Positions 1,079 to 23,831 of a stretch of 23,831 nucleotides of DNA are shown here, in pieces. The stretch is from a virus, in the IMG/VR virus record IMGVR_UViG_3300029258_003713, positions 1 to 23,831 of that record. One strand, written 5' to 3'. How positions within the stretch are numbered: the first letter of the stretch is position 1; each line of letters starts with the position of its first letter. The notes beneath the pieces were generated by a model. The model did not search any database. It saw nothing but the letters and a program-made list of their open reading frames with translations, and was not told where the DNA came from. Position numbers and translations under genes: made by a program.

Positions 1079-1360
1079 CTACTCCTCGATCTCGATGTCC
1101 AGCTTGGCCGCGATCTTGACCACGTTCTTGTCGATCCGACTCGTCGTCTCGCACGTCTCGCGCAGCCACAGCTCCCGGCCATGGCAGGCCGAGCGGATCT
1201 CGGCGATCTCGGCCTTCAGGTGCACGATCTCGCCTTCGACCAGGGCCATGCGCGCCCGCAGGCCGAACATGCCCGAGACGACCCACCATCCGGCGCCGGT
1301 CAGCACGCCGCCGCCCAGGAGAACCGCCGCGATTGCCAGGAGGATCTGTCCGGTTGTCAT
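1079..1360 (-). CDS. Small membrane-anchored coiled-coil protein of the virion operon
   Basis: This 93-aa protein has one hydrophobic N-terminal segment (about residues 5-32, ILLAIAAVLLGGGVLTGAGW) that would span the membrane. It is followed by a charged helix (about 36-92) with heptad-like Leu, Ile and Val spacing that ends in IDKNVVKIAAKLDIEIEE and is probably a coiled coil. GGAGG lies seven bases before the ATG, and its start overlaps the previous gene's stop by four bases. Small membrane proteins with a coiled coil occur in phage morphogenesis or lysis regions, where some are spanins or holin-like, but here the gene sits among the connector genes. I do not recognise a family. Confidence 0.6.
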   Translation of the reverse strand: MTTGQILLAIAAVLLGGGVLTGAGWWVVSGMFGLRARMALVEGEIVHLKAEIAEIRSACHGRELWLRETCETTSRIDKNVVKIAAKLDIEIEE

Positions 1361-2182: not shown

Positions 2183-2728
2183 TCAAATCGAAGCCAACAG
2201 AAGCGCGTAACGCTTCCTGTTGTGGATTAGGCTGACTGTTGCGCGACTCACCCCGAATTGCTGGGCAATATCCTTCTGGGCAACCGTGCCCCTAAGGGAT
2301 GCGATCCGCCGAACTTGACCATCGGTCAGCTTCCTGCCAACCGGCTCGCGGAGGCCCGTCCGATAGGCATGCCGATGATTGTCGCCACGGCTCAGATATT
2401 CCAAGTTCTTGATGCTATTGTCGTGCTTGTCACCGTTGGTGTGGTTCACGTCCTGGCCATTCGCCTTTCCCAGAAAGGCTGCGGCAATCAACCGATGCAC
2501 ACTCCTCGCAAAGTACTTCCCGTCTCGGCGGAGGCTCACCACAAGGTACCCTGTCTTGGAGTGTGGCGTCTGCCGCAGTACCTTCCACTCGCCCGACTTG
2601 AAGCTCCGAATCCGTCCGAGATTGCTGGCTTGATAGTCCGGGAATCCGGGGATGTTCCGCCAGATTTCATTGGACGCGATTCGTGAATCCGGACGCGAAT
2701 CACTCACGATGGGAACTGGATTGCTCAC
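2183..2728 (-). CDS. HNH homing endonuclease with NUMOD4 and C-terminal HTH
   Basis: A GTG at 2728 begins this 181-aa frame and overlaps the TGA of the capsid gene (GTGA), with a GGGGGAA ribosome site. Domains in order: NUMOD4 at about residues 20-45 (EIWRNIPGFPDYQASNLGRI), an HNH_3 nuclease at about 60-122 with VHRL, the metal-site region DVNHTNGDKHDNSIKNLE and the trailing NH-R-AYRTG, then a DNA-binding helix-turn-helix at about 145-175 (DIAQQFGVSRATVSLIHN). Such free-standing enzymes cut alleles lacking the gene and so spread selfishly. Placement between capsid and decoration genes indicates invasion of the virion operon. GC is visibly lower than in flanking genes, consistent with transfer. 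The frame continues upstream across the capsid gene only as a shadow. Confidence 0.9.
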   Translation of the reverse strand: MSNPVPIVSDSRPDSRIASNEIWRNIPGFPDYQASNLGRIRSFKSGEWKVLRQTPHSKTGYLVVSLRRDGKYFARSVHRLIAAAFLGKANGQDVNHTNGDKHDNSIKNLEYLSRGDNHRHAYRTGLREPVGRKLTDGQVRRIASLRGTVAQKDIAQQFGVSRATVSLIHNRKRYALLLASI

Positions 2729-4731
2729 GCTTCCCCCTTTGCCTTGCAGCCGCCTTTGGGGTCCTGCAGAGCACAACCGAAATCGTGGTAGCCGCGCATC
2801 TGCACGCCGAGGACGTTGAAGTCCGCCTCGGCCGTTTCGATGGTCGGGCTCTCCTGGCCGTTGAGGAACGCGACCTCGATCACCGGCAGGTCCACCGGAT
2901 CGGCCAGCAGGTACCACGCCTTGTCGCTGTTGCCGGTGTAGCTGCTGTTGGACAGGTACCGGCTGACCTCGGCTCGGTACTTGCCCTGATGCGGGTTGGC
3001 CACGGGGTACTTCGTGCTGGCGGTCGTGTCCCGCAGTTCCAGCGACTTGTAGAGCTGGGTTCCGACCGCGCTCAGCGCCGTGGGCAGCAGCATGATCGTC
3101 GGCATGATCCCGAGGGGCTTGCCGTCCGGATCGACCTGGTCCATGAACTTGACCTCGGCCTTGGTCAGCCCGTCGATGCTCAGGGCCGAATCCGCCCCGG
3201 TGACGTAGTTCTTGTTGCCGGCCTTGAAGAACGACCCGTTGTTCAGGAACACCGTCCAGAACACGTCGTTGATCTTCAGGCCGCTGCCCCGACCGAGCTT
3301 GCGGGGCACCGCCGTGATAGCGCCCAGGTCGTCGTTGATGATGTCCCGCCTGTCGATGCTGAGCAGCAGCCCGTACGTATCGGCCTTGTTGGTGTAGGAC
3401 TCCTCGCCCAGCGTCCCGTGCTTCAGCTCGCCGCCCGGGGCGACCTTCTGGTACTGGTCCTTGCCGATCAGCCGATACGAGGTGACCGTCTTGAAGTCCG
3501 AGACGTTGCGGACGGCCGTGATGTTCCGCCAGGTCCGCTCGACGCTGAAGAAGCCCTCGAGCAGGAACTTGTTCGCCACGTTGGACAGGATGCCGCTGAT
3601 GTCCACCGTGCTGAACGCCGCCTGGATGTTCCGCCCGAAGGCGAACCGCAGCACGGCCCGGCTGTCCCGGAAGTTGCGGCCGGTGTACCCGTTGGCCCAC
3701 GCCGCCTCGAGCAGCAGCTCCTGCAGGCCGATCCCGCCGCGGAACCGCTTGTCGGCCAGCTCGAGCGCCTGCTCCCCGTGGGAGGCGACCAGGTCGTCAC
3801 CCTTGATCCCGCCGGTCATCAGGCACGCGGCCTCGAGCACCTGGCCGGTAACCCCCTCGTCATCGCGGCTGTGGATCGCCGGGGCCTTGGGCCGCGAGGC
3901 GCGAAGCACCTCCAGCTCGGCGCGCGTCTCGTCCCAGCCCTCTTCGATGGCCTTGGCCTCGATGTCCGGGTATTGGCCGGCGCAGACCTTGCGGATCGCG
4001 GCGATTCGCTTGGTCTCGGCGGCCGCCTCGGCGCGCATCTGCGCCACGGGATCGGCCTGGCCGCCATCGTCGCCGGCCGCCTCGATCTTCGGCTGGGCCT
4101 CGGGCTCGGGCTGAGCCTCGACCTTGGGCTGCTGTTCGACCTCGGGCTCGGCCGCGGTCTTGACGTCATCTTTGCCGTTCGTCTTCATGGTGTTCTCCTG
4201 GCTGTTCTCTGCGGCGACGCTGGCCGATGCGCCCTTGTCGGCGCCGCTGTCGACGAAGCTGATTTCCTTGAGGACGGCCTTGCGCACCACGTGCACAGGG
4301 CCGGTGAACGTCTTGCCATTGACCTGGACGCGCCCCCCGGCGGGTACGAACTCGGCCTCCACGACCGCCGCGCCGATGCTCGCCTGCCACGGGAAGCCCT
4401 TGGCGCCGCTACGGGCCACGTCCCGGGCCCAGGACGTGTCGCGCGAGATCAGGCCCTCGGCGACGAGCCGGCCCTGGTCGATAGCGATCCGCCGGGTGTG
4501 TCCCACCCCCTGGCGGCGCTCGTGGTCCAGGCGGATCGGCAGGTTCTGGCTGGGGATCTCCAGCCCGGCAAGGTCCACCACCACCGGGTGCGGGAATCCC
4601 CTGATCCGCATCCTCCCGCCGCTGTAGGCGACCATGCTGAATCGCGGCAGATCGCCGGCATCGCCGCCGCCGGCCTCGATGGTGGGTGTGGCGGTCATCG
4701 TTACGTGCGTAAGCGTCTCTTCATCCGACAT
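2725..4731 (-). CDS. Fused prohead protease and HK97-fold major capsid protein
   Basis: The 668-aa product has three parts. Residues 1-175 are an HK97-family (S78-like) prohead protease: a PIRLDHERRQGVGH segment carrying the presumed catalytic H70, a WQASIGA segment with the presumed nucleophile S118, and the typical ending EISFVDSGADKGA. Residues 180-290 are a charged Glu/Ala/Pro/Gln-rich scaffold-like region ending in coiled helices. Residues 300-668 are the capsid core: helical start, SVERTWRNI, a DRRDIINDDLGA segment and C-terminal strands. The protease normally removes the scaffold after assembly. AAGGAG precedes ATG 4731, and the start overlaps the portal stop. A second ATG (residue 182, position 4188) has AGGAGAAC upstream and could make a separate 487-aa scaffold-capsid protein. 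Fusions of this type are known in phages; the catalytic residues are inferred by pattern. Confidence 0.85.
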   Translation of the reverse strand: MSDEETLTHVTMTATPTIEAGGGDAGDLPRFSMVAYSGGRMRIRGFPHPVVVDLAGLEIPSQNLPIRLDHERRQGVGHTRRIAIDQGRLVAEGLISRDTSWARDVARSGAKGFPWQASIGAAVVEAEFVPAGGRVQVNGKTFTGPVHVVRKAVLKEISFVDSGADKGASASVAAENSQENTMKTNGKDDVKTAAEPEVEQQPKVEAQPEPEAQPKIEAAGDDGGQADPVAQMRAEAAAETKRIAAIRKVCAGQYPDIEAKAIEEGWDETRAELEVLRASRPKAPAIHSRDDEGVTGQVLEAACLMTGGIKGDDLVASHGEQALELADKRFRGGIGLQELLLEAAWANGYTGRNFRDSRAVLRFAFGRNIQAAFSTVDISGILSNVANKFLLEGFFSVERTWRNITAVRNVSDFKTVTSYRLIGKDQYQKVAPGGELKHGTLGEESYTNKADTYGLLLSIDRRDIINDDLGAITAVPRKLGRGSGLKINDVFWTVFLNNGSFFKAGNKNYVTGADSALSIDGLTKAEVKFMDQVDPDGKPLGIMPTIMLLPTALSAVGTQLYKSLELRDTTASTKYPVANPHQGKYRAEVSRYLSNSSYTGNSDKAWYLLADPVDLPVIEVAFLNGQESPTIETAEADFNVLGVQMRGYHDFGCALQDPKGGCKAKGEA
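4186..4202 (-). promoter_or_regulatory. Internal Shine-Dalgarno and ATG inside the protease-capsid fusion
   Basis: On the minus strand the bases CAGGAGAACACCATG place a near-consensus AGGAG seven bases before an in-frame ATG (4188-4186, residue 182 of the fusion). It lies exactly at the end of the protease domain and before the charged linker MKTNGKDD. Initiation here would give a scaffold-plus-capsid protein without the protease, so capsid subunits could exceed protease subunits. Confidence 0.6.
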
Positions 4732-11907: not shown

Positions 11908-12363
11908 ATGGCTACTGAAGCACTCGAGATTCCGGAGAGATGCTGCCTGAACTGTGTGTTTCTGTACGATCCGAGTCAGGATGGAAAGCCCAAGCCCTCC
12001 TTGGACCGACAAACCAGAGATCGGCTTCGGGTAAGCGATCCCATTGGCAACAGAACGTTGCAGTGCTATCAGGAAGTCTGGGATGCCAAGGCGGTCAAGG
12101 ACGAGCCCGAAAGCAAACTCGACCGATTGCTCAGAGAAGACCGGGGAGAATTCTGTCTCTTCTACCCCTACAAGCCCAATGTATTTCCTGCTGCCGCGAA
12201 GCACCTTGAACGACGAGCCGCCGACCGCCAGGAGGCGGAAAGGGACCGTGCTCTGACTAGGAGAGCCTTCTGGGTCGCTTTTGCAGCCCTTATGGTCTCG
12301 ATCTTCGCGATTCTGGCACAGCTCACGTGGGACATCTGTAAGCATATTCATTCCTGTCCGTAG
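11908..12363 (+). CDS. Cys-rich protein with C-terminal membrane segment (moron)
   Basis: The 151-aa product has cysteines at residues 12, 13, 16 (RCCLNC), 53 (LQCYQ) and 83 (EFCLFYPY), a spacing that could bind zinc or an Fe-S cluster. A charged Arg/Glu helix at about 98-119 precedes one membrane segment at about 120-142 (FWVAFAALMVSIFAILAQL), with a short Cys-containing tail outside. It is probably tail-anchored with the Cys-rich part inside the cell. It has its own promoter, is lower in GC than its neighbours and faces the methyltransferase gene, whose 3' end it overlaps by 16 bases. A superinfection-exclusion or defence role is conceivable. Family unknown. Confidence 0.7.
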   Translation: MATEALEIPERCCLNCVFLYDPSQDGKPKPSLDRQTRDRLRVSDPIGNRTLQCYQEVWDAKAVKDEPESKLDRLLREDRGEFCLFYPYKPNVFPAAAKHLERRAADRQEAERDRALTRRAFWVAFAALMVSIFAILAQLTWDICKHIHSCP

Positions 12364-13667
12364 GCTGAAATTCGTTTCGCCTTCTGGCCGGTAAACTGCT
12401 CCCAGCGCTGCACGATCACGTCGCAGTACAGGGGGTCGAGTTCCATGAGGTAGGCTCGGCGCCCGGTCTGTTGGCAGCCGATGAGGGTCGAGCCCGAGCC
12501 GCCGAACAGGTCCATGACGTTCTCACCGGGCAGGGAGCTGTACTGAATGGACCGGACGGCCAACTCGACGGGCTTCTCGGTCAGGTGCACCATCGCTTGG
12601 GGACTGACCTTCTTGACATGCCACAGATCCGTGGCGTTGTTGGGGCCGTAGAAGTTGTGGCCGGCGCCTTCCTTCCAGCCGTAAAACGCCAGCTCGAACG
12701 CCCCCATCATGTCTTTCCTGGTGAGCACCGGATGCTGCTTGTCCCAGACGATGCCCTGGCTGAAGTACAGCCCAGCCGCCTTCAACGGCGCGGGGTAGTT
12801 GCCGAGGTTGGCGTACCCACCCCAGATGTAGAACGACCCGCCCGGCTTGAGCACGCGCGAGGCGTTTGCGAACCACGCCATGAGCATCTTGTCGAATGCC
12901 TCGTCGCTGACGAAGTCGTTTTCGAGCGGCCGGTCCTTGGCCCGCATCTTCTTGCGGGCCTTGGTCGGGTCAATTGTGCCCCGGGCAACATCGAAGCGCT
13001 GGTGGTGCATCTTCTGCGACAGGTCGGGGTGGGAGCTGTTGCCGGCGGCGATGGCGGTGCTACTGCGCGGCTCGACCTTCACGTTGTACGGCGGGTCCAT
13101 GTTGACCAGGTCGATGGTCGCCCCGTCCAACAGCCGGTCGAGATCGGCCTCGCTGCCGCTGTCACCGCACATCAGACGGTGCTCGCCCAGCACCCAGATG
13201 TCGCCCGGCTGGGTGATCGCCTCGTCCGGTGGCTCGGGAACCTGGTCCGGATCGGTCAGGCCCTCGGTGGCCTCGCCGTCGAGCAGCTTGGCCAGTTCTT
13301 CGCTGCCGAAGCCCAGCAGGCTCAGGTCGTAGTCGGCGCCCTGGAGATCCTTCAGTTCGATGGGCAGCAGGTCGAAGTCCCACTCGGCCAGCGTGGCCGT
13401 CTGGTTGTCGGCGATCCTGTAGGCCTTGATCTGCTCGGGCGACAAGTCGGTGGCCACGTGGACAGGCACCTTGGCCAGGCCGAGCTTCTTGGCGGCCTTC
13501 CAGCGGGTGTGCCCGACGATGATCACGCCATCGCCGTCCACAACGATGGGCTGGCGGAAGCCGAACTCGGCCAGGGAGGCCGCCACGGCGTCCACGGCCT
13601 GGTCGTTGACGCGAGGATTAGACTCGTAAGGCGTGATGTCATCAATGTTTCGGATAGCGACTTTCAT
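12348..13667 (-). CDS. ParB-like nuclease/DNA methyltransferase fusion (beta class)
   Basis: ATG 13667 follows AAGGAGAT, so the 25 upstream codons of the frame are left out (439 aa). Residues 1-95 are a ParB/Srx-like domain (LAEFGFRQPIVVDGDGVIIVGHTRWKA style; residues 34-57). Residues 155-439 are a methyltransferase: DPPY at 191-194 comes first and the SAM-binding FGGSGST at 388-394 comes last, which is the beta-class order, with LDPLYCDVIVQRWE at the end. DPPY suggests N6-adenine; N4-cytosine is possible. Such ParB-methyltransferase fusions are common orphan phage enzymes that protect phage DNA against host restriction. No cognate nuclease lies nearby. The 3' end overlaps the convergent gene ending at 12363. 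Confidence 0.88.
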   Translation of the reverse strand: MKVAIRNIDDITPYESNPRVNDQAVDAVAASLAEFGFRQPIVVDGDGVIIVGHTRWKAAKKLGLAKVPVHVATDLSPEQIKAYRIADNQTATLAEWDFDLLPIELKDLQGADYDLSLLGFGSEELAKLLDGEATEGLTDPDQVPEPPDEAITQPGDIWVLGEHRLMCGDSGSEADLDRLLDGATIDLVNMDPPYNVKVEPRSSTAIAAGNSSHPDLSQKMHHQRFDVARGTIDPTKARKKMRAKDRPLENDFVSDEAFDKMLMAWFANASRVLKPGGSFYIWGGYANLGNYPAPLKAAGLYFSQGIVWDKQHPVLTRKDMMGAFELAFYGWKEGAGHNFYGPNNATDLWHVKKVSPQAMVHLTEKPVELAVRSIQYSSLPGENVMDLFGGSGSTLIGCQQTGRRAYLMELDPLYCDVIVQRWEQFTGQKAKRISAYGQE

Positions 13668-13732
13668 GTGCGATCTCCTTCGCGAAAAAACCGGCGGCGC
13701 AAAACAAACTCTGCCCATGGGTGCGACTGTTC

Positions 13733-13763
13733 CCGCGGCCATTTTCTCGATTCGATGCCGCGG
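13733..13763 (-). other. Hairpin between two replication-block genes
   Basis: In the 111-base gap 13668-13778, CCGCGGC and GCCGCGG form a 7-bp inverted repeat with a 17-base AT-rich loop. No run of T follows on the minus strand, so it is only a weak terminator candidate. It could instead be a processing or pausing site before the methyltransferase gene. Confidence 0.3.
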
Positions 13764-18264: not shown

Positions 18265-19034
18265 GCAACCACCTCCGTTCCGTCGGGGAGGATGCAGCGG
18301 CCGTCCATGATCGGGATCGTGTACAAGGTGTCGCTGCGCCGACCGAGGTAGCCCAGGATGAAGGCGTTGACCCACTCGACGGGCCTGCCGGTGCCGTACA
18401 GCGGGATCGGCTTGCACAGACACCCGGCGCTTCGGGCCTGGATGATCCTCGCCGGCGACCAGATGTTCTGGATGATGCTCGTGTCGGCCCTGTGCGTGTG
18501 CCCGTGGATGACGCTCTTGCCCTGGCTGATCTGGAGGTGGTTCTTCGTCGCGTGCTTCGCGTAGGACCAGCCGTGCACGGCGATGATGCGCGAATTGACG
18601 GCGTAATGCGGGTACTTGCCCGACGTCGTGCCGTAGCGGACGTAGGTGCATCGCTTGCGGCCCCGCATCAGTTGAATGCGCGGTGCCAGCATCGAATACG
18701 CGCCCCTGCCCTCAGCCGTCGCCGCTGCCCAGCGGTCCAGCCGGTACTCATGGTTGCCTTCCACCATCACCAGCCGGTCACACGCCTTCTGAAGGCGATC
18801 CAGCAGCGCACCGGCAGTATCCAGATCGGCCTCGTAGTCCGTTTCCGGCATGCCATAGGTCGGCGGGTGCGTCGAGAACTGTCCGCAATCGAGCAGATCA
18901 CCCAGGCAGACGATGAGGTCAGGCCGAAGGCGCTCTGCGGCGAGGCAGAACACCTCCAGCGCCGCGACGTTCTGATGGGGCGCGTGCACGTCGCCGAAGG
19001 CGAGCATCGTTTTGCTGCCGGTCCTGGCCATCAT
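18261..19034 (-). CDS. Calcineurin-like metallophosphoesterase
   Basis: ATG 19034 overlaps the previous stop (ATGA) and follows GGGGGA, so the longer upstream frame is not used (257 aa). All family motifs are present: GDVHAPH at 14-20, GDLLD at 45-49, GNHE at 93-96, VHGW at about 153-156, and HGHTH at 177-181. The enzyme uses two metal ions to cleave phosphoesters. In phage replication blocks such proteins may act as SbcD-like nucleases or phosphatases, but no SbcC partner is visible, so the substrate is unknown. It lies between a DUF4406/DUF6378 gene and the SF2 helicase. Confidence 0.88.
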   Translation of the reverse strand: MMARTGSKTMLAFGDVHAPHQNVAALEVFCLAAERLRPDLIVCLGDLLDCGQFSTHPPTYGMPETDYEADLDTAGALLDRLQKACDRLVMVEGNHEYRLDRWAAATAEGRGAYSMLAPRIQLMRGRKRCTYVRYGTTSGKYPHYAVNSRIIAVHGWSYAKHATKNHLQISQGKSVIHGHTHRADTSIIQNIWSPARIIQARSAGCLCKPIPLYGTGRPVEWVNAFILGYLGRRSDTLYTIPIMDGRCILPDGTEVVA

Positions 19035-19699
19035 TCGTCCCCCGCGACCATTCCGGCCGTTCGCGCGTAGCCCGCGATGTCTACCAGGTTGTCCCTCTTG
19101 TGATGATGCGATTGACGGGCCAATTTGACTGCGATTACGCATAGGGGCACGTCCATCGCCGTGACCACAGCACCATCGCGCAGTTTGCCGGCCAGGATGC
19201 CCGTCCACATCAGTGCCGTTCGGGCGAAGTCATCGGCCGGATGGCCATAGTCCTTCTGCCGGTCCGTGCTGGTAATGCGCTGAGCCTCGGCCAGGATCGA
19301 TTCGCTCGGGTCGGCGGTCACCAGCCGCAATCGGTGGAGACCGACTGTCGGTACCGGCGCTTCGGTCACCGGCCCAAGCGTCTCGGCGTCGAGGATCTCC
19401 ATCCCGAACTCACGAGCCAGCAGGTACTCCAGCTTGGCCCCGCACGATTCCTCCCACCCGGGCAGCAGGGCGATGGCGTCGCAGTCGACCAGCAGGGCAA
19501 CGTCGGCGCGCAGGTACATTTCGCGGGGCAGGTCTGTGCGTCCGTCAAAGTTCTCGGCCGGATTGGCTACCACCCAACCGGCCGCCCTGAATCGCTCGGC
19601 CGCTGCGTGGAAGGCCGGATAGTTCGAGCCTGCCGCCCCGGACGCGAGGGCGCCGCCGTGTGAGAAGGAGGTCGATCTGGCTGTCGTCGAGGTAGACAC
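19031..19699 (-). CDS. DUF4406 and DUF6378 nucleotide-related phage protein, start uncertain
   Basis: The C-terminal 100 residues (SESILAEAQRITSTDRQKDYGHPADDF in part, then VVTAMDVPLCVIAVKLARQ and LVDIAGYARTAG) match DUF6378. The preceding region (YPAFHAAAERFRAAGWVVANPAE, REMYLRADVALLVDCDAIALLPG, GAKLEYLLAREFG) matches DUF4406, a nucleoside 2-deoxyribosyltransferase-like fold. Its usual initial strand and start are missing: the frame remains open upstream into RusA, and only a GTG at 19699 without a Shine-Dalgarno is available, so the start is approximate. Either the gene overlaps RusA by over 150 bases or an indel fused two genes. Nucleotide metabolism is a family-based guess. Confidence 0.6.
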   Translation of the reverse strand: MSTSTTARSTSFSHGGALASGAAGSNYPAFHAAAERFRAAGWVVANPAENFDGRTDLPREMYLRADVALLVDCDAIALLPGWEESCGAKLEYLLAREFGMEILDAETLGPVTEAPVPTVGLHRLRLVTADPSESILAEAQRITSTDRQKDYGHPADDFARTALMWTGILAGKLRDGAVVTAMDVPLCVIAVKLARQSHHHKRDNLVDIAGYARTAGMVAGDE

Positions 19700-19949
19700 C
19701 CGCGTGCTCGAGCGCGTCGAGTACCGGCTTGGCGATGTTGTCCAGGTCGCGCCGCCGCCGATCCGGCGGGAAGGCGTCCATCGCCAAGGCAATGCGCCCG
19801 CCAGCGGGGGGCTTGCGGGCCCCGCCGCCGCCCAGGAGGGCACAGACATTCCTGCGGAACGTCCGGCCCTCCCGGCTGATCAGCGTGCGAGGCCCCACCC
19901 GGCGCCAGTAGTGGTTGATGCTCGGGGGCCAGGGCAAAGCAAGCTTCAC
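19545..19949 (-). CDS. rusA: RusA-type Holliday junction resolvase
   Basis: GTG 19949 has AGGAGG upstream. The beginning LALPWPPSINHYWRR is the standard RusA N-terminus. The catalytic cluster is RRRDLDNIAKPVLDALEHAGVYLDDSQID in part, where the two Asp of DLDN, the Lys and the DD of LDDSQ correspond to the Asp/Lys residues that bind magnesium and cut four-way junctions. The family normally ends soon after an RGGRLEL-like strand, near 19630. Here the frame runs on about 30 more residues to 19545, overlapping the DUF4406 frame. RusA resolves recombination intermediates before packaging. It overlaps the upstream gene by four bases. Confidence 0.85.
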   Translation of the reverse strand: MKLALPWPPSINHYWRRVGPRTLISREGRTFRRNVCALLGGGGARKPPAGGRIALAMDAFPPDRRRRDLDNIAKPVLDALEHAGVYLDDSQIDLLLTRRRPRVRGGRLELSGLPRSGRAIQGGRLGGSQSGREL

Positions 19950-21835: not shown

Positions 21836-22429
21836 CTACGCCAAGTAGCCGTCCAGCCCCTTCGCAGCAAACGCCTCACGCAGTCGCGTGAGGTGGTTGT
21901 CGTAGAAAGTGGCGTGCGGAACACCCATCTCACGGGCGACTTGCGCAATGGGGTGGACCTGAAGCAACTCCGCCGCCTGGCGGAGATCCGGCGGCAGGTC
22001 GGCCAGCACCGTGTCGACGTCCATTTGAAGGTGGGCACGCTCCTCGGCGGGAAGATCGTACTTGCCCCAGCGGATATCCTGTTCGTCCTGGCTGATCGTG
22101 CTCAGGCGCTGTTTGGGCTCGTCCTCGCCGACGTCGATGTCCTCGTTGAGCGAGCAGATCTCGCGCCGGTAGTCGCGTACATCCTGGGTGCGGTGCCGAA
22201 TAAGGTTGCTGATCTTCCGCTCGACGAGGCGAGCGACAAACGTGTTGTACGCGGCCTTGGCCGGGTCGAACTTCGGCAAACGTTCCAGCAGGTCGAGGAT
22301 GAGTTCCTGCTCGATGTCCTCGACGTCGTCCTGCGTGAAGCCCGCCTTGCCGACGAGCTGCCAAGCCTTGTGGTGAACGAGTTCAAGTGCGTAGTCATTG
22401 AGTTCGTACTGCTTGTCGTTGGTGTCCAT
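21836..22429 (-). CDS. Sigma-70-like factor A (197 aa)
   Basis: The 197-aa protein has a region 2-like helix bundle (about 20-85) with TQDDVEDIEQELILDLL and KFDPAKAAYNTFVARL, the latter matching the 'fdp....f.t.l......' core-binding and -10-recognition pattern of small sigma factors. A charged linker follows (about 86-140), then a region 4-like HTH at 158-186 (IAQVAREMGVPHATFYDNHL). It is much shorter than a housekeeping sigma and lacks region 1.1. Phage sigma-like factors redirect host RNA polymerase to phage promoters. It is related in size and layout to the gene at 23114-23707. Its Shine-Dalgarno (GAGGAG) is inside a 7-bp hairpin, so translation is probably controlled. Confidence 0.75.
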   Translation of the reverse strand: MDTNDKQYELNDYALELVHHKAWQLVGKAGFTQDDVEDIEQELILDLLERLPKFDPAKAAYNTFVARLVERKISNLIRHRTQDVRDYRREICSLNEDIDVGEDEPKQRLSTISQDEQDIRWGKYDLPAEERAHLQMDVDTVLADLPPDLRQAAELLQVHPIAQVAREMGVPHATFYDNHLTRLREAFAAKGLDGYLA

Positions 22430-22614
22430 GAGGACTCCTCGTGGCCGAGGAGGCCTGCGTGGGTGCCCACGAAAGCAGCGATCCGGTAATGAAGGAGGCG
22501 TTGCAGGTTCGCCGCATCAGCGGCACCCACAACGCCTCCACTTCGTGGCCGGTTAGTTGTCAGGTACTCGATTCGTTTACATCACTTCGCATGTGGGGAG
22601 CCGACCCCCTGTGG
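22430..22614 (-). promoter_or_regulatory. Structured RNA leader of sigma-like gene A
   Basis: On the minus strand the Shine-Dalgarno is in a perfect hairpin: CTCCTCG (22452-22446), loop GCCA, CGAGGAG (22441-22435), with ATG five bases on. Upstream, GGAGGCGTTG (22539-22530) pairs with CAACGCCTCC (22503-22494), enclosing GCCGC/GCGGC. GTGGGTGCC (22530-22522) can pair with GGCACCCAC (22467-22459). The two pairings interlock, as in a pseudoknot or switch. Similar elements precede the other sigma-like gene. Function inferred. Confidence 0.55.
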
Positions 22615-23043
22615 TCAGGCAATCACCTCCTCGACGGTCATCTTGAACGGCAGGCCGTGCTTGACCTCAATGCACCGTACGGTCCCGTCGCCCATCGCCT
22701 CAAGCTGGGCGAACAACTCACGCACCTGCGCCTTCAGGGCGAAGTCGTCCTTTGCCATCTCCGGGCGCGGCCCGTTCTCGCCACGGAACTTGATCTCACG
22801 CACCACGCGCGGGGGCGGGTCGACCACCGGGGCTCCGCTCCGGACGGCGAGGTGCTCGATTCGGCCGAAGTTGATGCATTGCATCAATTCCACCAGCCGT
22901 GCTCCTGAAGCGGAGAGATCGACCTTCGCCATAACATCGCCCGCGTCAAACTCGTCGGTGTTGTAGTGTTTGCACGCGGGGGGATTCTTCGATTCGGCCC
23001 GTTTGTTTCCGATTCTGCTGCTGTCTGAGAACGCCTCGCACAT
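22615..23043 (-). CDS. Conserved hypothetical phage protein between two sigma-like genes
   Basis: ATG 23043 has GGAG eight bases upstream, giving 142 aa; an internal ATG (residue 38, MAKVDLSASG) is a possible alternative start without a ribosome site. The core is ARLVELMQCINFGRIEHLAV, then DPPPRVVREIKFRGENGPRP and KAQVRELFAQLEAMGDGTV, ending in IEVKHGLPFKMTVEEVIA. I have a recollection of such proteins in Planctomycetota but cannot name a family. The residue pattern suggests a soluble alpha/beta protein. A GACAG-TAAGTAA element lies just upstream. Confidence 0.65.
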   Translation of the reverse strand: MCEAFSDSSRIGNKRAESKNPPACKHYNTDEFDAGDVMAKVDLSASGARLVELMQCINFGRIEHLAVRSGAPVVDPPPRVVREIKFRGENGPRPEMAKDDFALKAQVRELFAQLEAMGDGTVRCIEVKHGLPFKMTVEEVIA

Positions 23044-23075
23044 GGCCGTGTCTCCAATACCTGTCGTGATACTTA

Positions 23076-23105
23076 TTACTTATGCCGTTCGCGCACAGAG
23101 CTGTC
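23076..23105 (-). promoter_or_regulatory. Looser promoter-like element (GACAG - 18 bp - TAAGTAA)
   Basis: On the minus strand GACAG (23105-23101) and TAAGTAA (23082-23076) are separated by 18 bp, against 17 bp in copies 1 and 2. The ATG at 23043 is 39 nt after the first T. The flanking sequence is not conserved, so this supports a promoter reading of the motif but could be chance. Confidence 0.35.
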
Positions 23106-23113
23106 CGGGAAGA

Positions 23114-23707
23114 TCAGGAATCGGTTAGGCCCGCCTGACGAAAGCGCTTGCAGATGGCCAGCACGTCCTTCCGGACCTCCCGCCTCGAGATGCCCATCTC
23201 CCGTGCAATGGTGGTCTCTCTGGCCTCGATCAGGCGCTTGGCGACCTCACGCTGCCGGGGCGTCAAGCCGGCCATCGCGCCGGCCACGTCGACTGAAAGC
23301 CCGGAATCGGCCCGGGGGTCGTGAACGAAGCCCCCACAGCGGCGGCGAAGGTCGCTCTCGCTGACAAACTCGCCCAGCGTCGCCTGCCCCTCGTCCTCCT
23401 CCGGATGGAAGGTGTCCTCCAGAGAGGCCGCGTGGTAGCCGGCCGCGCGCTTAACGCGCCCCCGCTTGCGAATCTCCATCGCCACGGCGGTCTCGACCAC
23501 GCAGGAGACGAACGTGTTCACGCACGCTCGGGCGGGATCGTACTTGCTGGCCTGCTCGAGCAGGTGGGCGATGAGGTCGTGCTCGATGTCGGCCCTCTCG
23601 GAGTATCTGAACTCCGGGCGGCTTGAGAGCTGGCGAGCCCTAATCTGGAGAAGCTTCTGGACGTACGTAGTGGACAGGGCCAAGCGGACGGCATCGGTGG
23701 TACCCAT
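23114..23707 (-). CDS. Sigma-70-like factor B (197 aa)
   Basis: The product has a region 2-like part (about 12-85) with ERADIEHDLIAHLLEQ and KYDPARACVNTFVSCVVETA, closely like factor A. A charged linker with Cys 124 follows, then a region 4-like HTH at about 150-190 (LTPRQREVAKRLIE, ETTIAREMGISRREVRKDVL). Length equals factor A. LTPRQREV is the typical beginning of sigma region 4 or a LuxR-type HTH. It probably binds promoters with host polymerase; a solitary DNA-binding regulator is an alternative. GGAGG six bases upstream of ATG 23707 is held in a 6-bp hairpin. Confidence 0.72.
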   Translation of the reverse strand: MGTTDAVRLALSTTYVQKLLQIRARQLSSRPEFRYSERADIEHDLIAHLLEQASKYDPARACVNTFVSCVVETAVAMEIRKRGRVKRAAGYHAASLEDTFHPEEDEGQATLGEFVSESDLRRRCGGFVHDPRADSGLSVDVAGAMAGLTPRQREVAKRLIEARETTIAREMGISRREVRKDVLAICKRFRQAGLTDS

Positions 23708-23831
23708 CGTGGGCCTCCGTGGGCCGGAGGCGGATGGGTCGGTGCCGTCCGAAGTGGGCGCGGACCGTCCGCGCCACCCTTGCCGAGCGCAAAGAAAACG
23801 GAGGGTGTTGGACTATCGCTTCGGCGACACC
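23708..23831 (-). promoter_or_regulatory. Structured RNA leader of sigma-like gene B (incomplete)
   Basis: CCTCCG (23730-23725), loop GCCCA, and CGGAGG (23719-23714) lock the Shine-Dalgarno six bases before ATG. Upstream lie a 9-bp palindrome GGCGCGGAC/GTCCGCGCC (23757-23775) and CAACACCCTCC (near 23810-23800), whose partner would lie past the window edge; the last bases GGTGT are its probable start. Shared short blocks with leader A, in the same order, suggest homology. Confidence 0.45.

Follow-up and report, generated by a model that had tools for sequence, protein, structure and literature searches.

How is the expression of two phage sigma-like genes controlled when both follow leaders that seem to bury their own Shine-Dalgarno (SD) sequence? 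The question is raised by one end of a linear IMG/VR phage record, whose 23,831 nucleotides are called the window here. Genes A and B encode paralogous sigma-70-like proteins of 197 aa each, with 32% identity (E 1e-20). Gene A scores 52.9 bits against the sigma70-ECF model TIGR02937 (cut-off 42.9) and belongs to the ECF members, whereas gene B, at 26.7 bits, falls below this cut-off. A 142-aa gene without a Pfam, PHROG or NCBIfam match lies between them (22615-23043, minus strand), and in many relatives leader A is preceded by the end of an ORF (..FRMTVEEV..A*) resembling this gene. Other genes on the minus strand of the window are an HNH/homing-endonuclease-like gene with NUMOD4-type motifs recognized by eye (2183-2700) beside a putative capsid gene, a 668-aa ORF that reads by eye as a prohead protease fused to a major capsid protein (2725-4731), an N6/N4 DNA methylase with a fused ParB_N domain (12348-13742), and a single ORF joining DUF4406 and DUF6378 (19031-19849).

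An earlier note on this DNA had described a perfect hairpin of 7 bp at gene A and 6 bp at gene B that hides the SD directly before the ATG. Both hairpins are found, but that of gene B also has 7 bp. The hairpin of gene A, CTCCTCG-GCCA-CGAGGAG, holds the SD GAGGAG 5 nt before the ATG, and that of gene B, GCCTCCG-GCCCA-CGGAGGC, holds GGAGG 6 nt before it. An SD in a short perfect hairpin before the ATG is what would be expected of an RNA thermometer, in which this hairpin (P4) melts with temperature. However, P4 alone has -11.6 (A) and -13.7 (B) kcal/mol at 37 °C, the conserved and covarying helices SL-I, P1 and P2 of the leaders are not needed for a thermometer, and related leaders of an integrase operon have a different RBS hairpin. 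A thermometer is therefore very improbable. The elements that had been listed as common to both leaders turn out to be parts of a single structure: CAAC[G/A]CC and GGCACC are the 3' strands of helices P1 and P2, respectively, and GCCTCC-GGCC-ACG-GGAG is P4. Likewise, the two interlocking pairings noticed in leader A are P1 (GGAGGCGTTG/CAACGCCTCC) and P2 (GTGGGTGCC/GGCACCCAC). The earlier note had seen only part of the structure, in which the conserved sensor-like domain is a 5' hairpin, SL-I, and not the SD hairpin.

From 5' to 3', the leader consists of SL-I, P3, P1', a variable stretch, P2', and P4 with the SD (Table 1). The parts of SL-I are P5 (YACC..ACAAC with GUUGU.GGUG), a short helix in the middle, a GG/A internal loop, and P0, which has a small loop. 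The covariance model of the whole leader, R1, matches 22426-22575 with 122.9 bits, leader A itself being in the R1 alignment. The SL-I model, R2, matches 22522-22578 with 65.2 bits, and here too the window sequence is within the alignment. Both leaders fold more stably than dinucleotide shuffles (z = -4.8, 0/200 for A; z = -3.4, 2/200 for B). The P1+P3 hairpin of leader A reaches about -38.8 kcal/mol, the family mean being -38.2, and the PL 3' strand forms a duplex of -35.4 kcal/mol with the shared strand S. Leader B is without SL-I as the contig ends at 23831; a full-length relative (L276) is found in a Planctomycetota genome.

Table 1. Features of the two leaders and their genes in the window
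Feature	Position	Strand	Evidence
Gene A, ECF-like sigma-70 family protein	21836-22429	-	Sigma70_r2, PHROG sigma-factor and TIGR02937 matches
Leader A, whole RNA element upstream of gene A	22430-22575	-	Covariance model R1 and fold z
SL-I, conserved 5' hairpin (P5, P5m, GG/A internal loop, P0)	22524-22566	-	R2 match, covariation
SL-I 5' strand UACC-UG-ACAAC, partner of GUUGU and GGUG	22556-22566	-	Pairing count
P0 stem-loop CCAC-GAA-GUGG	22538-22548	-	Covariation
Shared strand S (GGAGGCGUUGUGGGUGCC), partner of SL-I, P1 and P2/PL	22522-22539	-	
P1+P3 hairpin, weak U tail in leader A, terminator-like in many relatives	22494-22539	-	
P3 stem-loop GCCGC-UGAU-GCGGC	22511-22524	-	Pairing count
P1' strand (ACCUGCAACGCCUCC)	22494-22508	-	
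PL 3' strand: P2' (GGCACCCAC) and anti-SD strand (GCCUCC) of P4	22449-22467	-	
P4, SD-sequestering hairpin of gene A	22435-22452	-	SD 22435-22440; -11.6 kcal/mol alone
Gene B, second sigma-like paralog	23114-23707	-	Sigma70_r2 and PHROG sigma-factor matches; likeness to A
Leader B, same family, 5' end removed by contig end	23708-23831	-	Fold, likeness to A
P3 of leader B (UCGC-CGAA-GCGA)	23816-23827	-	
P1' of leader B (CCAACACCCUCC)	23800-23811	-	
U-rich tract 3' of P1' in leader B (GUUUUCUUU)	23791-23799	-	
P2' of leader B (CGGCACC), pairs with GGUGUCG 23825-23831	23741-23747	-	MFE fold
P4, SD-sequestering hairpin of gene B	23713-23731	-	SD 23714-23718; -13.7 kcal/mol alone

Relatives of these genes are difficult to reach. 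Protein searches with either sequence alone gave almost none, and an alignment of the two paralogs was needed; it yielded 17 related loci in IMG/VR, and a wider alignment 55. The upstream regions of the closer relatives repeat the leader of gene A. Further viral and bacterial loci were fetched by DNA patterns derived from the core strand S. Sigma-like genes headed by this leader occur in dozens of IMG/VR phages; among bacteria, they are found in prophages of Desulfobacterota and Planctomycetota, including cultured Desulfosarcina, Desulfofustis, Desulforhopalus and Desulfobulbus. Among 109 leaders of distinct sequence, 104 have a sigma-like gene downstream, four precede another operon, and one is too near a contig end. 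In genomes of the phylum of Desulfosarcina, R1 and R2 match 10 and 12 of 297, respectively, and in Planctomycetota 14 and 21 of 294. R2 matched none of the genomes of two other phyla (0/199 and 0/198; 0/397 in total). A set of near-identical leaders (L132, L150, L177, L182, L183, L187, L208, L215, L237 and L238) occurs in Desulfofustis, Desulforhopalus, Desulfosarcina, Desulfobulbus, Ectothiorhodospira and several MAGs, and reads as a recently spread prophage or mobile element. In Wolbachia phage WO (L021), a distant sigma-like gene directly precedes an AAA24 gene, just as gene A precedes the Sak4-like gene in the window; R2 has no match in that locus.

The main evidence for a structured RNA is the covariation of SL-I. 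In 35 diverse sequences, 92.4% of its cells are paired and double changes occur at 12 of the 16 pairs, with a covariation score of 0.310 against 0.177 in shuffles (0/500). Sliding the partners lowers the score from 0.31 to at most about 0.10. A second, structure-blind alignment of 19 covariance-model hits, mostly independent and mostly found later by the model, again has compensatory changes at 12/16 pairs (0.429 against 0.224, 0/500 shuffles). The SL-I 5' strand together with P0 is paired in 94.9% of cells (0/500 shuffles). P0 occurs in many forms, such as CCGC/GCGG, CCAC/GUGG, CUGC/GCAG, UCGC/GCGA and GAGC/GCUC, as well as AAGC/GCUU, GCGC/GCGC, GCCC/GGGC and UUGC/GCAA. One P0 pair is G-C in 44 sequences and A-U in 29, and is thus paired in all 73. 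P0 and P2 together are 96.3% paired, with 65 double-change cells against 18 in shuffles (0/500). The GG/A internal loop is near invariant (33/35, 29/35 and 34/35). Covariation strongly supports SL-I as a real conserved hairpin, and the cis-regulatory RNA family that the earlier note had suspected is borne out, with leaders A and B as members and covarying pairs in the homologous leaders.

Perfect inverted repeats near gene starts may also be operator or promoter sites that act as DNA palindromes. This has very little to recommend it: the compensatory changes include G-U pairs kept on the coding strand, the same strands take part in alternative helices, and the elements have a fixed position and orientation before start codons. 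The earlier note had recognized no described family, and Rfam 15 gave no match, at gathering score or with a convincingly low E-value, over leaders A and B or over seven loci with diverse relatives. Over four loci that include integrase-operon leaders, the sole gathering-level match was to the tRNA model. A published description of the leader family was not found in the open-licence literature either. The leaders thus constitute a structured, apparently undescribed RNA family in many temperate phages.

Strand S, with the consensus GGAGGNCGUUGUGGGYG, takes part in several alternative helices of this RNA. It is the 3' strand of SL-I, but its bases can instead pair with P1' in the P1/P3 hairpin or with P2'. 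Since all of them use S, SL-I, P1/P3 and P2/PL are mutually exclusive. P2 is paired in 97.1% of cells, and one of its pairs is U-A 30 times, C-G 27, U-G 9 and A-U 3. For P1/P3/P4, 85.4% of cells are paired and double changes occur at 14 pairs; P3 itself is paired in 81.4%, with double changes at two pairs. The layout is of the riboswitch type, with the 5' domain SL-I exclusive with the expression platform, and with SL-I, P1 and P2/PL all covarying. RNAalifold with the full alignment recovered just P1 and part of its top, because alternative helices cannot share one structure.

The duplexes of S with its own upstream (SL-I), P1' and 3' partners are better than those with partners swapped between leaders (0/5000 each), a strength that is inflated because the leaders are related. 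Taken separately, the two main sequence types show a weaker effect, which for PL in type 2 is not convincing (326/5000), since leaders fetched by S patterns hardly differ in S. Many leaders were fetched in this way, and the invariance of S is overstated accordingly. Leaders found by protein or model carry variants of S, such as GUCGU, GAUGU, GCUGU and GUGGAUG; in these, with the upstream segment cut short, the leader's own S is better than both canonical S strands in only 6/14 cases for P1' and 8/14 for the 3' region. At the level of sequence comparison, SL-I, P1/P3, P2 and P4 are shown to exist and to compete for S. Two other candidate elements were rejected. A GGCC-GGCC kissing interaction between a 5' element and the P4 loop was dropped by eye, many relatives being without one or both GGCC. 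A leader peptide with GGAGG-GUUGUG as SD and start is broken in frame by one-base indels between types and in the P3 loop.

How the competition for S may expose the SD is suggested by the position of P2', which immediately precedes the anti-SD strand of P4. Many leaders have an S that can pair continuously with both, forming the extended helix PL. PL covers the anti-SD strand, and therefore PL and P4 exclude each other. In constrained folding, the SD has a median probability of 0.00 of being unpaired when nothing or P1 is forced, and of 0.49 when PL is forced. These values and the shared strand are consistent with the proposal that alternative folds hide or expose the SD. In a nearest-neighbour model without pseudoknots, P1+P4 is on average 13.3 kcal/mol more stable than PL; in this model the P1 state is the ground state with the SD buried, and the leader would be OFF by default. 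With such a difference, the ON state would have to be reached kinetically or with the help of a bound factor. The ensemble with SL-I forced (-69.8 kcal/mol) is slightly less stable than that with PL (-72.4 kcal/mol), so PL is accessible once P1 is avoided.

A kinetic route could suffice by itself, if metastable SL-I, then P1, then PL merely delayed translation during transcription in a ligand-free timer of the hok/aapA3 kind. The S-pairing energies do rise in the order of transcription (SL-I -15.6, P1 -27.2 and PL -32.2 kcal/mol), and in aapA3 mRNA successive metastable hairpins sequester the SD (PMC6733600). However, the computed ground state is P1+P4 and not PL, and the near-invariant GG/A loop and the conservation of SL-I at the sequence level suggest a binder. 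We consider a pure timer unlikely.

P1 may also act on transcription. A U-rich tail 3' of P1 is in the top 5% of the leader's own positions in 42 of 73 leaders (58%), and the tail is absent in many type-2 leaders. The stretch after P1' is GUUUUCUUU in leader B and just UUCAUU, a weak tail, in leader A. A consensus scan found no intrinsic terminator at leader A, the P1 hairpin exceeding the loop limits of the scan. For a large part of the family, transcriptional attenuation is plausible; for gene A it is uncertain.

Beyond the two sigma-like genes considered in the earlier note, the leader RNA also heads an integrase operon. SL-I is found upstream of a small ORF, DUF2924 (PF11149, E 6e-53) and a serine recombinase, usually in a prophage that also has the sigma leader; sequence patterns failed or were too strict to find it, and it was detected by the covariance model. 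With few exceptions, R1 and R2 hits precede either a sigma-like gene or the small ORF and DUF2924. An SL-I-like hairpin at L358:785-842, possibly a remnant, lies upstream of an ATPase-like gene instead. In two genomes (G001 and G021), DUF2924 is followed by the gene of a large serine recombinase, and the gene of a LexA-like repressor runs divergently. A prophage that has a sigma leader usually has a companion leader as well, some 4-7 kb away and often in divergent orientation. In many integrase-operon leaders of Planctomycetota, S itself is one arm of the RBS hairpin, as in L277 (GTGGGCGCATCC-GAGA-GGATGCCCAC-C-ATG), and therefore SL-I and RBS sequestration exclude each other directly. This hairpin leaves part of the SD in the loop, and forcing SL-I did not raise the computed SD opening in the integrase-operon leaders. 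In one MAG (L335), a tRNA-model match (1192-1264, plus strand, 69.8 bits) lies about 250 bases upstream of the integrase-operon leader and may be an attachment site next to the integrase.

The two copies allow a different view, in which the leader is a put-like RNA, a cis-acting antiterminator or anti-pausing element on RNA polymerase for early phage operons, with SD sequestration being secondary. Two divergent copies about 4 kb apart are present in each of four prophages (G021, G171, G178 and G190), those of G021 stand at the heads of two operons flanking the LexA-like repressor, and HK022 likewise has two copies, putL and putR (PMC9378689). Nevertheless, the leader extends up to the start codon and uses a strand that SD-hiding helices also use, neither of which put needs; it has no Rfam match, and the covariation of the shared strand S favours alternative folds. 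A put-like role is improbable.

The reading that we prefer, at a probability of about 0.6, is a cis-acting leader fold-switch of temperate phages that heads two operons, that of the sigma-like gene and that of the integrase. When P1/P3 forms, the gene would be OFF by sequestration of the SD in P4; leaders with a U-rich tail would in addition terminate transcription. Were S engaged in SL-I during the passage of RNA polymerase, P1/P3 could not form. S might then pair with P2' and the anti-SD strand as PL, breaking P4 and leaving the SD free in an ON state. The formation of SL-I would be the decision step, and it may be stabilized by a phage or host protein, a ligand, or folding kinetics alone. 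A protein on the GG/A loop is the favoured candidate sensor, because the loop is near invariant and common to two unrelated operons.

A tentative suggestion is that the fold is set by a protein bound to the purine internal loop of SL-I, be it the sigma-like protein (possibly as autoregulation), another phage protein or a host protein. This suggestion names a sensor within the fold-switch and does not replace it. SL-I is a compact hairpin of a size typical of protein sites and is common to two operons of the same phage, but the downstream proteins of these operons are unrelated, so that simple autoregulation cannot cover both. More speculatively, and with somewhat less likelihood, the fold-switch may extend to a riboswitch-like phage regulon, in which one RNA sensor in two copies per prophage jointly sets the ECF-like sigma factor and the serine integrase, with RNA folding joining the decision between lysogeny and induction.

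The leaders represent an apparently undescribed and widespread phage RNA family in poorly studied bacteria, with covariation strong enough for curation. A phage sigma-like factor and a site-specific recombinase operon are tied to one RNA element, which suggests coordination of lysogeny at the RNA level. Cultured hosts such as Desulfosarcina, Desulfofustis and Desulfobulbus make the family testable, and the binding partner of SL-I, once identified, would lead directly to a new regulatory signal.

Among known systems, riboswitches and attenuators resemble the family in their 5' UTR position, in a conserved 5' domain that shares a strand with a terminator-like or SD-hiding platform, in the combination of variable platforms with a constant 5' domain, and in the occurrence of the same RNA before two operons. 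Membership among the riboswitches would also require the direct binding of a small ligand. Unlike them, the leader family has three alternative partners for one strand and no Rfam match, and is phage-borne before a sigma-like gene and an integrase operon. In HK022, putL and putR are RNAs of about 70 nt downstream of the PL and PR of that phage and act on RNA polymerase (PMC9378689). In position and copy number they are similar, being phage RNA hairpins whose two copies head two, often divergent, operons, whereas the leader RNA lies directly before the start codon, in competition with SD and terminator-like helices. The hok/aapA3 type I toxin mRNAs share successive alternative pairings, duplicated anti-SD-like strands and a buried SD, as with the successive metastable SD-sequestering hairpins of aapA3 mRNA (PMC6733600). 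However, the genes downstream of the leaders are not toxins, the computed ground state is P1+P4, and SL-I is common to unrelated genes; 197-aa sigma-like proteins or a DUF2924 operon do not make a type I toxin-antitoxin system. RNA thermometers also pair the SD in a hairpin beside the ATG, but the leader family adds an elaborate conserved 5' domain and a covarying long-range helix.
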